Positions 6,975 through 11,119 of a stretch of 64,000 nucleotides of DNA are shown here, in pieces; within the stretch, counting starts at the first letter, position 1, and each line of letters starts with the position of its first letter. The notes beneath the pieces are model-generated. The model saw only the letters and a list, made by a program, of their open reading frames with translations. It was not told the origin of the DNA and made no database searches. The position numbers were made by a program, and so were the translations under genes. The stretch is taken from positions 1,116,001-1,180,000 of the forward strand of contig JAGMVK010000013.1 in the NCBI GenBank assembly GCA_020747065.1, given 5' to 3'. Source of the stretch: Cadophora sp. MPI-SDFR-AT-0126. Lineage: Eukaryota; Ascomycota; Leotiomycetes; Helotiales; Ploettnerulaceae.

Positions 6975-8108
6975 CTAACTTCTGCGTTGGGTCAAATTCT
7001 CCTGCAGACGAGCACACTGCTGCTGAACAAACTCGAACTGCTTGTTTTTATCGGCATTATCTGCCAGAGCCTGACGCGATTTCCGTTTCTCCTCATTCAA
7101 CTCGCTCCGCAATCTATTCAATGCCAAAGTCCTCTCCTCCAAGGCTCGAGTTTTCTCTTCCAGTTCAGTCTGCACCGCAGCCTTTGCTCGCTGCAACTCC
7201 GCATTTTCTTGTCTCGACGAAGCGAGCACACTCTCCAGATTCTGTTGCGTGTGTCGAAGAGTCTCTACCTCACGGCACAATCTTTCCAGCAGATCTTTGT
7301 ATCTTGCCTGATGTTGTGAATTTGTCCATGCATTTTCTGCAGTCGCGGCTATCGGTTCCTCAGATGACCCAGCAGCAGCTCGTACAGCTGGCCTTTGCAG
7401 CCGATTTGAGCTTTCGACTGGCTTTTGTTGCTTGTGTATCTCAGATCTCAGGTTCTGTCTCAAAATTCGTATTTCCTCTTCCTGCGCTTGATTCCTCGTT
7501 CTCAGATCCTCAGCCTCCTTGTTCTTCCTTCTCTCAATATCCGCAATATGCCGGAGAAACCTATCTTTCTGAGCCCTTAACTCCGCATCTTTCTGATTTT
7601 GTACATTATTAAGCTCTTGCTGTATCTGTGCCCTGGCAGCATTATGTTCCGCGTCATTCCTCAGGATTTCTGCGAGGCTATTCTGTAAGACGACTTGCTT
7701 CTCCAATTGATGTTCGTCATCTTTTCGCTGCAGTTCAATCTGCAATCTGCCAACTTCCCGAGAACTCCTTTCGAATTGTTGGGCTAGGAGCTCGGCTCGA
7801 TTTGTGGCTTCCAAGCGTTGTGCGTCGGAGCGTCGGAGTCGGCGGAGGGCATCTTGCTTCATTCGAACCGTTTGGCTGAGCTCATTCCGAAGGGTTTCGA
7901 CTTGGGATGCTTGGACGCTGGTGGTACTTGGTGAGTGGAGATCGGAGGGGGTGTATATTGGACTTGGTCGTTCGTTGATGGGTTGAAGTGGGCGTGACTT
8001 TCGACGAGGGAGTGAGTCACTGTTATTGTTGGTGTTCGTGGGGGCGTTGGTGTCGCCGAGTATGTTTACCCGCGCCAGACTAGCTTTCTGCTTGAGTTTG
8101 TGAAACAT
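6975..8108 (-). CDS. Coiled-coil protein, function unknown
   Basis: A single uninterrupted 377-residue frame from the ATG at 8108, which begins MFHKLKQKASLARVNILGDT. The frame stays open up to 8285, but that upstream part reads like untranslated sequence. Residues about 35-70 are rich in Ser, Pro and Asn and look disordered (LPRRKSRPLQPINERPSPIY). From about residue 75 to the end the protein is almost all charged heptad-like sequence (repeated LR, EL, RLQIELQRKDDEH), with one break near residues 245-275. This is a long parallel or antiparallel coiled coil of the type seen in spindle-pole, septation or cytoskeletal scaffold proteins. No globular domain is visible, so no specific role is assigned. 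Confidence 0.75.
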   Translation of the reverse strand: MFHKLKQKASLARVNILGDTNAPTNTNNNSDSLPRRKSRPLQPINERPSPIYTPSDLHSPSTTSVQASQVETLRNELSQTVRMKQDALRRLRRSDAQRLEATNRAELLAQQFERSSREVGRLQIELQRKDDEHQLEKQVVLQNSLAEILRNDAEHNAARAQIQQELNNVQNQKDAELRAQKDRFLRHIADIERRKNKEAEDLRTRNQAQEEEIRILRQNLRSEIHKQQKPVESSNRLQRPAVRAAAGSSEEPIAATAENAWTNSQHQARYKDLLERLCREVETLRHTQQNLESVLASSRQENAELQRAKAAVQTELEEKTRALEERTLALNRLRSELNEEKRKSRQALADNADKNKQFEFVQQQCARLQENLTQRRS

Positions 8109-8558
8109 GATATAGCATAGAAATATCCTGAGATATCCATTCCACATCGATTCTCGACTTTTGAAGCTTTCAAGAAATGTAATCCTGGGGAGAGAGTCAG
8201 GCTGGACTAGAATGCCTAACGCCAAGAACGGGCTTGCTGCTGAACGCACACTGCATGAGGTTGCGACATTGGAACGAATGAACACTTCTTTTCAATGCGG
8301 CAAGGCGGAGAATGCGCTCAATGATGCATGGTCATTTTTCTCACCGAACATTGCATGGTTCCTACAAATATTTGGGGGTCGCAGGCTGGGTAGTGCGGGA
8401 TTTTCAGGCATGTGTTAGACAGCATCGCGGAAGTCTCAGCACTTGAGAAGATTCAGGGCAAATATTATAGTATCATTCAGTTACCAAGCACAGTGTAGCC
8501 AGTCAAAGAGATGGTATCCGCCAAAGAGAATTTGGAGACCAAGGATGGGAAAATGCTT
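8109..8558. other. Intergenic region between coiled-coil and ubiquitin-like genes
   Basis: Holds the 3' end of the ubiquitin-like gene and the promoter of the coiled-coil gene, both read on the minus strand. A plus-strand frame at 8161-8418 shows no recognisable features. Confidence 0.4.
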
Positions 8559-9347
8559 CTAAGAAGTGCCTCCGCCTCTCAGCCTCATCACAAGGTGGAT
8601 GGTACAATTCTGCACGTGTCAGCAGGTATTTGCTGGAAATGGGACTCGATTCTTTACCTCGCCGAAGTTATAGCTCTCCAAAGTTCGTTCTGTTTTCGAC
8701 GATAATCAGATGTCAAGTCATAAACAGCTTAGAAGGGACTTAATACCATCTTCGAGCTGTTTCCCACCCCAAAGGAACCGGTAATATTCAATCTCAAGAG
8801 CCTTTTCGTCACCAAGTTTCTTTCGAAGCTGTTTCACTTTCCATTGCAGGCCAATTCCATGGATTGTGAGTGTTTTTCCATCTAGGTCCCTGAACATCAC
8901 ATTGTTAAGCACGATGGGCCCAGAGTTGTTGGTAGTATAGGGAGGCGGATTGATTGCGGGAGCGACGGAGCGGGTGAAGAAAATTGTATCGCCCTGCTTA
9001 GATTAGCCATTTATACAACTTTGTGACAATTATGAAGACAACTTACATCCTGAACACCATAAGAAGATAGAGTTGAGTTCACTGTAGGGTTCAGCCTCGT
9101 GGAATTCCCACCATTCTCGAGCACCTGAAAACTTACAATCAGACAACTCTTTATCAGCGAACGCAAGAGAAATGTTGTTCCACCCTTGAGGATTTGCGAG
9201 TTGTTCAGCAATCAGTTCCTTGAGGCTTTGAACTGTATTGGATGTCGGAACTCCATTCAAGCGTCGGCTGAGTCCTTCGTTCGAGTTGACCTCTTCGATG
9301 TAAAGAAAATTCCTCGCACAATCGTCGTCGGGCTTCCAGTCAGTCAT
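8559..9347 (-). CDS. Tandem ubiquitin-like modifier ending in RLRGG plus a 3-residue tail
   Basis: Five exons on the minus strand, 9137-9347, 9047-9081, 8747-8993, 8658-8689 and 8559-8609, with introns of 55, 53, 57 and 48 nt, give exactly 191 residues. Two ubiquitin folds are visible. UBL1 (about 13-90) ends with KELSDLNSTLSSYGVQDGDT, the usual end of a ubiquitin fold. After a Pro/Asn-rich linker (about 92-112), UBL2 (about 113-188) has GKTLTI, KQLEDERTLESYN and TIHLVMRLRGG, close to ubiquitin itself. The C-terminus is RLRGG (184-188) followed by Gly-Thr-Ser, so a protease would have to expose the di-glycine before E1 activation. Two-domain modifiers with this ending are known in vertebrates as ISG15 and FAT10. 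The gene is divergent from an RBR E3 ligase 146 bases away (392 if the later E3 start is used). That it is conjugated is inference. Confidence 0.88.
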
Positions 9348-9493
9348 GATGGTGAGGATACTTTGTATGTATTATTGTGATACTAATTCAATGGAAGTAT
9401 GCAGGGTACAGTTCGGATTTTAGGAAGTGAAGAATGGGCTGTGGAGGTTCCAAGTGGGGTCAGGCTGTAGGATTCGGTGGTGTTCGGTGAAGA
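9348..9493. promoter_or_regulatory. Shared promoter region of ubiquitin-like and RBR genes
   Basis: Only 146 bases separate the two head-to-head start codons (up to 392 if the E3 starts at 9740). This implies a bidirectional promoter and possible co-regulation. I see no clear TATA box or known operator in it. Confidence 0.55.
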
Positions 9494-11119
9494 ATGAAGC
9501 TTGAAGCTGTCTCGGAATTTGTGACGTGGACTGCAGCAAGGCTACATGTAAGTGACATCGAGCCCAAGACTCTCAGTCTGCCTCGTGTCACAAATCTCTT
9601 CGGTGATGCTGGACGTGGCTTTGAGCCAATGTACTCAAAAGATTTTCCCTTGGCACCAGGCCGTTCCTCGATTGCGGTTTCTCAAGTCCTCAACACTCGA
9701 AAACCAAAGTGCAAAATCTTTTGCTTAATTCAATCAGCTATGGATGAAAATGATTTTCCTGCTTGGAAGACATGTTGGCAGGTCAACTTACTTTTCCACA
9801 AACGTGTCTCATCGAAACCGCTCAAATGCATTGTTTGTTCGAAGACGAACACAGAGGCCGACGGAAGCTTGAGATCGACGTTTTGGGTTGAAGCTACGAG
9901 ATGCTCTGCGGGCCATAGACAAGTAACATTCTCCGAGACACAGTTACCATACGCTCTCGGAATTTGTGCCATTTGTGACCAGAATTACATGTTGGATGTG
10001 GTGAAAGGGAAACACGGTTGTAGAAGAGAAGGCTGCAGGAGAGCTGTGCGAGTGCGAGAGGCAGAAGTTCATGTTAAGCTGGAGTCAGATTCGGATCTAC
10101 TACAGTGAGATCATTAGTTCAAATGACTATTCTTACTGATGTGATGCAGGGCATTCCTCTCTATTTTCAAGCGGTATCGAGTCTATGAATGCGCTATTCA
10201 TTGTGATGAGGTTCCATACGGCTCAAACTCGGCTATTGCTCTTAAGCCTCCAACACCACAATGTAAACATGATCGAAATGTTTGCAATGCTTGTCTCAAG
10301 ACTACATTTGAGGGAGCAATTCGAGGCGGCCGTCTCCAGGACCTGGTGTGTCTCGATACCGAGTGTAGGAAACCTTTGCCACTGGGTTCCTTGAGACAGT
10401 ATGTCTCCGCAGAGGTTTTCAAGATGTAAGTTCTCTCCTAGGGTATCTGCTACATTCATTTTAATATCCTACAGATATAACAAGAAACTTGCACTTGCTC
10501 TGATCTCTAAGGACGAGAAGTTCCGCTGGTGCGTGTGTGGTCATGGCCAGATACATGCCTTCGGAGGCAAGTAACGGCGACCTAAAATACGATCACGGAT
10601 AGCTAATATATTTTACCAGAGAGCAATCCAGAATGGAATTGCCTTTCTTGCAAGCAACGGCATTGCTACATCTGCCGAGACGAGTCATCCGAGCTCTGCC
10701 AACACTTACGAAGCAATGATGCCAAAAAGCAGATACAGAAGAACCAACAAAAGCAAGCTGCCATAAAAGCCTTCGAAGTGTCAGCACATAAAGCTCGAGA
10801 GAATGAAACCGCAACAAAACGAGAGATCGCGCGAACAACGAAGAAATGTCCAAAGTCAGGATGTGGCAACAGGATCGAACGAAACGACGGATGTGGTCAC
10901 TTTACTTGCAAGAAGTGCTCCACTGAGTTCTGCTGGTGCTGCAAGGTCATTTGGAAAAATAAGAAAGTGCTGCATTTGTCTGGATGTCAGATTGGGTCGA
11001 GGTCTACGACATCAAAGGCCAGTTTGGACAAGACTGGATACGCAGTTGGCTGGGATACGGACCTCGGCTACGATGTTTCGCTTGACAGGGGACTTTGGTT
11101 GATTGAAGGACATCAGTAA
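9494..11119 (+). CDS. RING-IBR-RING (RBR) E3 ubiquitin-protein ligase
   Basis: Four exons (9494-10104, 10150-10425, 10475-10566, 10620-11119) give 492 residues. RING1 has C218, C222, C242, H244, C249, C252, C271, C276. IBR follows with C315, C317, C334, C337, C342, C345, C353. RING2 has C403, C408, C418, H420, C423, C426, C431, C434. C418 (NDGCGHF) sits where RBR ligases carry the cysteine that accepts ubiquitin from E2 before transfer to substrate, so catalysis should be intact. A charged helical linker (about 355-400) joins IBR and RING2. Residues about 118-190 hold further paired cysteines (CIVC, CAIC, GCRREGC), perhaps another zinc site. The third intron uses a GC donor (GCAAGT at 10567), required by frame. 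RING1 spacing C-x3-C is one residue longer than usual. The start is uncertain: ATG 9740 would give 410 residues and still keep all domains. Confidence 0.9.

Follow-up and report, generated by a model that had tools for sequence, protein, structure and literature searches.

The window analysed here is a stretch of 64,000 nucleotides from Cadophora sp. MPI-SDFR-AT-0126 (contig JAGMVK010000013.1, positions 1,116,001 to 1,180,000 of the forward strand), a root-mycobiome fungus with a genome of 54.0 Mb in 38 contigs. Two genes lie head to head in this window. One encodes a protein with two tandem ubiquitin-like domains, a putative protein modifier (hereafter the modifier), and the other encodes an E3 ligase of the RING-between-RING (RBR) type. 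Because the modifier and ligase genes share a contig in distantly related fungi, they suggest a protein-tagging system that appears to be undescribed.

The modifier gene occupies positions 8559..9347 on the minus strand and encodes 191 amino acids in five exons. The bulk of domain 1 is encoded by exon 1 (9137-9347) and continues in exon 2 (9047-9081), while exon 3 (8747-8993) carries the end of domain 1, the linker and the start of domain 2. Exon 4 (8658-8689) is followed by exon 5 (8559-8609), in which an RLRGG motif (8571-8585) precedes the residues GTS and the stop codon. All four introns (55, 53, 57 and 48 nucleotides) have GT-AG borders, and the frame is open throughout in the window, giving the C-terminus RLRGGGTS. 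A protein search identified the product as the deposited hypothetical protein BKA64DRAFT_756715 (P0001), identical over 191 amino acids; this agreement between gene models is an annotation match and carries no transcript evidence. The protein matches the Pfam ubiquitin family in two stretches with a whole-protein E value of 1.2e-22, indicating that the match is not due to chance. Thus, the five-exon tandem ubiquitin-like protein ending in RLRGG-GTS, which an initial annotation had read from the sequence, was recovered in full.

Scored singly against the Pfam ubiquitin model, domain 1 reached 1.7e-7 and domain 2 reached 3.2e-14. Pfam, a structure model and a fold search all indicate the ubiquitin fold, and the top 60 of 406 sequence matches in PDB are all to ubiquitin, polyubiquitin or fusions and variants of these. 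The ubiquitin of the fungus itself shares 38% identity with domain 2. Domain 1 terminates in GDTIFFTRSVAP, without Gly-Gly, and only domain 2 carries the Gly-Gly pair. By sequence, two tandem ubiquitin-like domains ending in RLRGG and a tail reproduce the layout of ISG15, with position 74 differing among orthologues. A genome search at the exon level, in which 10 modifier and 8 ligase candidates were scored, showed no second copy of either gene.

The ligase gene lies on the plus strand at 9740..11119 and encodes 410 amino acids in four exons (9494 or 9740-10104, 10150-10425, 10475-10566 and 10620-11119), or 492 amino acids if the ATG at 9494 is used. Of 14 other ligase rows, eight begin at the position of ATG 9740 or only a few residues away from it (P0007, P0009, P0011, P0012, P0013, P0015, P0017 and P0021). 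P0016 begins a little before this position, the P0010 row is truncated, and the longer rows P0014, P0018, P0019 and P0020 each have a start of their own. Additionally, 12 rows align to 82-84% of the 492-residue query and none matches its first 82 residues, which is the coverage to be expected if relatives do not share this stretch; P0008, the model deposited for the same strain, does include it. Because the relatives' starts and this coverage point to the ATG at 9740, that start is more likely, and with it an intergenic stretch of 392 bases (9348..9739) rather than the 146 bases that result from the start at 9494. The initial annotation had given the distance between start codons as 146-392 bases, of which the upper value is thus the more likely. 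It had also named the catalytic residue Cys418. The codon itself holds (10892-10894), whereas the numbering favoured by the relatives is Cys336, counted from 9740 instead of 9494.

The third intron of the ligase gene (10567-10619) has GC-AG borders, and the protein resulting from this splice agrees with its relatives around the junction. An alternative GT donor also leaves the frame open but yields FGGKSNPEW, as opposed to LGESNPEW or QGERNPEW, for example, in relatives. P0008 splices this intron differently, losing the frame at the start of the IBR domain (after FRWC), and lacks RING2. Therefore, the ligase goes unseen in the strain's public annotation.

The ligase matches the Pfam IBR family (E = 1.8e-10). 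Its zinc-binding Cys and His residues follow the order RING1, IBR, RING2, as indicated by the alignment pattern and by IBR models in all 12 aligned rows (15 were found; P0008, P0009 and P0021 were omitted from the alignment). The first RING1 ligand pair is C-x2-H or C-x2-C, and fold matches include HOIP, ARIH1/2 and parkin. Within RING2 the catalytic Cys is followed by one residue and a His (DGC-G-H in the window), and both C336 and H338 are invariant in 12 of 12 rows, confirming the divergent RBR ligase with an intact catalytic Cys that had been proposed. Exon 1 (9740-10104) encodes a further conserved N-terminal region for which no Pfam match was found. This region contains eight nearly invariant Cys/His residues (C30, C33, C55, H59, C76, C79, C94 and C99 in P0007 numbering) spaced as C-x2-C, C-x3-H, C-x2-C and C-x4-C; it is missing in P0010 and partly missing in P0011, and the structural comparison of the ligase hardly covered it.

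To define how far the two genes occur together, we queried a database of 5.8 billion proteins with the modifier, the ligase and a profile of six modifiers, a search that yields only annotated proteins sharing short exact words with the query. The modifier query returned 6 proteins, the ligase query 15 and the profile 23, from which P0037 and P0038 were dropped as ordinary ubiquitin-like or polyubiquitin proteins, judged by eye and by name, leaving 21. Modifier and ligase were recovered together from eight named fungi, and in all eight they lie on contigs of identical size to the base, which we took to be the same contig: Cadophora sp. MPI-SDFR-AT-0126 (1,609,245), Cadophora sp. M221 (101,716), Acephala macrosclerotiorum (48,918), Amniculicola lignicola (78,686), Clohesyomyces aquaticus (232,372), Lophiotrema nucula (1,534,206), Lindgomyces ingoldianus (3,533,513) and Thozetella sp. 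PMI_491 (895,767). These species span Leotiomycetes, Dothideomycetes and Sordariomycetes. Conserved adjacency had been put forward as a test of the pair. Shared contigs were seen in 8 of 8 fungi with both proteins, in three classes; adjacency proper is visible only in the window and in M221, where the locus tags are consecutive (IFR05_002745 and IFR05_002746). In Clohesyomyces the protein numbers are two apart (564734 and 564736).

The linkage test covered the modifier-ligase pair only. The product of the contig-to-genome fractions over the seven other species is 6e-16 for an assumed genome of 50 Mb, a value that is not the probability of any event because the species share ancestry. The informative part of this chance estimate comes from the four small linked contigs (49-232 kb). 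In trees of 15 ligases and 12 modifiers, the four Dothideomycetes form a clade (100/100) in both, and in both Thozetella is separate from Leotiomycetes as well as Dothideomycetes. The ligase and modifier trees disagree on the order within Dothideomycetes, and the placement of the long rows Tricladium and Sporothrix is unreliable. These results would fit a pair that was inherited jointly from an ancestor common to the three classes and lost many times; they would also allow for its joint transfer. The likelihoods expressed below are independent of the trees.

Eight of the 21 modifier rows have a readable C-terminus, and every one of these reads R-[LV]-x-G-G followed by one to seven residues: RLRGG-GTS, RLNGG-VRDLS, RLPGG-LLLGSI, RLPGG-F, RLKGG-A, RLPGG-IVR, RLRGG-YAS and RVLGG-DNLDTIT. 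Six come from linked species, one from a metagenome (P0022) and one from a second Thozetella copy (P0036); P0006, which ends in SGG and 12 further residues, was excluded. Thus, a Gly-Gly precursor with a tail was found wherever the end could be read. Compared with the ubiquitin of the fungus itself, all eight rows retain Arg42, Lys48, Arg72 and Gly75-Gly76. On the surface of domain 2, seven of the eight have Leu at position 8, and positions 44 and 48 are occupied by Ile or Leu and by Lys, respectively. Arg72 is the residue by which Uba1 distinguishes ubiquitin from NEDD8.

The linker between the two domains carries a PPxY motif (PPPY, residues 98-101, positions 8937-8948 on the minus strand). 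All 12 near-full-length rows have the motif, as do 13 of the 15 that were judged to span the linker (the exceptions are P0033 and P0036), while the surrounding residues diverge. P0029, with RPPY at this position, was left uncounted as the end of its domain 1 is missing. PPxY is the classic ligand of the WW domains in Rsp5/NEDD4 ligases, and the genome contains a 707-residue open frame with three WW domains (C1:3023048-3023608). The architecture of this frame would fit Rsp5. The conserved linker motif may bind a second partner of the modifier, for example the HECT ligase Rsp5 or another protein with WW domains.

Elsewhere in the genome, 23 IBR matches merge into 19 loci when joined within 3 kb, 18 of them outside the window. 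No ubiquitin-family match was found within 100 kb of any of these 18, the nearest lying at 122 kb, by a family search that misses genes split into exons, since the exon-split modifier of the window was itself unlisted. Of the nearest open frames flanking the pair, one matches GH92 glycosidase, one matches beta-eliminating lyase and one has no family match. Adjoining the pair on the minus strand (6978-8291) is a 438-residue open frame without a Pfam match that appears coiled-coil-like by eye. A second tandem ubiquitin-like frame lies at locus L030 (C1:3440360-3440776); its domain 1 ends in RLRGG-GDGRF, its domain 2 is more divergent and has no Gly-Gly in frame, and no IBR match occurs within 400 kb. 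Separately, locus L029 (C13:371478-372575) is a 402-residue open frame of four tandem SUMO-like domains with the Gly-Gly ends QVGG, QTGG, QLGG and QQGG-GI. It matches Pfam Rad60-SLD in four stretches (4e-79), and its best PDB match is a SUMO2 chain; a concatemer of SUMO domains would be out of the ordinary. Viral contigs were scanned twice for relatives, with 26 and 31 pattern matches, none of which was confirmed.

The two folds, the conserved Gly-Gly precursor end, the RBR ligase with its catalytic Cys and the conserved linkage lead us to favour, at somewhat better than even chances, a pair in which a ubiquitin-like modifier of two domains, similar to ISG15 and activated by Uba1, is served by an RBR-type E3 of its own. 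In such a pathway, whose every biochemical step we infer, together with any link to Rsp5, a ubiquitin-type protease would trim the residues behind Gly-Gly. The ordinary Uba1 would then activate the exposed Gly, aided by the conserved Arg at the Arg72 position of ubiquitin, and an E2 from the general pool would carry the modifier. Finally, the neighbouring RBR would accept it as a thioester on Cys336 of RING2 and hand it over to targets. For the fuller picture, an ISG15-like conjugation pathway with a head-to-head cognate RBR that is patchily distributed in three classes of filamentous ascomycetes and possibly tied to Rsp5 through PPxY, we put the chances at about even.

Several observations weigh against this reading. 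The whole case is built from sequence. When the modifier is compared as a whole protein, its fold matches reach TM-scores by query of just 0.34-0.40 in the rows shown, low values that arise because its two domains are placed otherwise than in the matched structures. The tail is unreadable in 13 of the 21 modifier rows, either because the row is a fragment or because its gene model ends or departs from the others around the third intron. In the eight readable ends the position of ubiquitin Arg74 is variable (R, N, P, P, K, P, R and L), and some orthologues may therefore be poor substrates for the ordinary enzymes. Among annotated proteins, the modifier was not found in 7 of 15 RBR-bearing species (Cadophora DSE1049, C. 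gregata, Lasiosphaeria, Rhypophila, a Naviculisporaceae, Sporothrix and Tricladium), nor the RBR in 2 of 10 modifier-bearing species (Leptodontidium and Oculimacula). Since the search can retrieve nothing but annotated proteins that have short exact words in common with the query, we treat these cases as non-detections and not as losses. On a different contig, Thozetella carries another modifier-like protein that is shorter (P0036), and neither of the trees groups Leotiomycetes into a resolved clade. Lastly, the initial annotation had suggested checking for a co-occurring E1, and no dedicated one was seen in genome searches with E1_4HB and E1_UFD and among 15 ThiF matches that were not sorted gene by gene. 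Each of the two models matched once, at the same place on contig C12, indicating one Uba1-type E1. Of the dedicated modifier-ligase pair that was originally proposed, the genetic part is thus supported (shared contigs in 8 of 8 fungi with both proteins, Gly-Gly tails in 8 of 8 readable ends), with no dedicated E1 seen.

The modifier might instead never be conjugated and act as a non-covalent regulator of the RBR, for example a built-in activator in the manner of ubiquitin or NEDD8 on other RBRs, with the ligase conjugating ordinary ubiquitin. Non-covalent binding of ubiquitin by RBR ligases is seen in structures of parkin-phosphoubiquitin, parkin-phosphoNEDD8 and HOIL-1/RNF216 E2-Ub/Ub complexes, and positions 8, 44 and 48 of domain 2 are ubiquitin-like. 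A regulator of this kind would have no need of Gly-Gly, yet the pair and a short extension are kept in every readable end while the preceding residue varies freely, and we consider this role unlikely.

We judge it less probable again that the modifier acts through PPxY as an adaptor or substrate of Rsp5 and that the RBR shares just its promoter and regulation. The retention of PPxY in all near-full-length rows of an otherwise diverging linker, and the three-WW frame in the genome, would suit such a role, which by itself leaves unexplained both the linkage to one RBR family in three classes and the Gly-Gly end. Equally improbable, in our estimate, is a frozen bidirectional promoter between genes whose products are functionally unrelated. 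Head-to-head genes can stay together through shared regulatory DNA alone; here, both products belong to the same pathway, the linkage extends over three classes, and none of the 18 other IBR loci has a detected ubiquitin-family match nearby, with the reservation on exon-split genes given above. That the modifier is a relic, either a ubiquitin pseudogene or a degenerate polyubiquitin, is very improbable despite the identity of domain 2 to the fungus's own ubiquitin, as the two-domain protein with its own linker and tail is conserved in three classes, the frame in the window is open, and domain 1 lacks the Gly-Gly that follows every repeat of a polyubiquitin.

Conjugation of ubiquitin-like proteins is well known, and the fungal gene pair as a unit appears undescribed. 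No account of a fungal tandem modifier with an RBR was found among the matches listed from the open-access literature, mostly titles and the beginnings of abstracts, in agreement with the initial annotation, which knew of no such system. FAT10 consists of two ubiquitin-like domains, and Parkin is an RBR ligase. The linker of ISG15 is short and is not known to carry PPxY. Two-domain ubiquitin-like proteins tied to conjugation have been described in vertebrates (ISG15 and FAT10) and in bacteria (BilA).

The conjugation pathway that we favour resembles that of the interferon-linked ISG15. The RBR HHARI (ARIH1) is one of the E3s of ISG15, and orthologues of ISG15 are reported only from vertebrates; ISG15 has UBE1L as its E1 and USP18 as its deconjugating protease (PMC9722776). 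Shared features are the two ubiquitin-like domains, C-terminal precursor residues (after LRLRGG in ISG15) and an RBR as E3, in the fungus a proposed one, and the fold search with the modifier also matched structures of ISG15. The proposed fungal system differs in the single Uba1-type E1 seen here in place of UBE1L, in the PPxY of its linker and in the head-to-head ligase gene. FAT10 likewise has a diglycine end, and Parkin was its only confirmed E3 at the time (PMC10424871). HHARI with ISG15 and Parkin with FAT10 are thus direct precedents for the mechanism proposed here. FAT10 is translated in its mature form (PMC11354881) and uses UBA6 (PMC10424871), whereas the fungal modifier has a tail behind Gly-Gly. 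A further known case is bacterial BilABCD, in which BilA is a two-domain, ISG15-like protein linked to genes for conjugation enzymes (PMC11354881). Linkage of a two-domain ubiquitin-like gene to a conjugation enzyme is thus common to both; Bil operons carry an E1, an E2 and a JAB/JAMM protease, whereas the fungal partner detected is an RBR E3. The ligase itself resembles the Ariadne-type RBRs (ARIH1, ARIH2 and Cullin-9), which gave the best PDB sequence match in RING2 with its Cys-x-His and a RING1-IBR fold match of modest Z; it differs in its N-terminal Cys/His region and in a family-specific C-terminal stretch. If the favoured reading is true, the pair would represent a convergent or hitherto missed branch carrying an ISG15-like architecture beyond vertebrates and bacteria. 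Since gene linkage here names the E3, the specificity of a modifier for its ligase, which is hard to establish elsewhere, would be directly testable.
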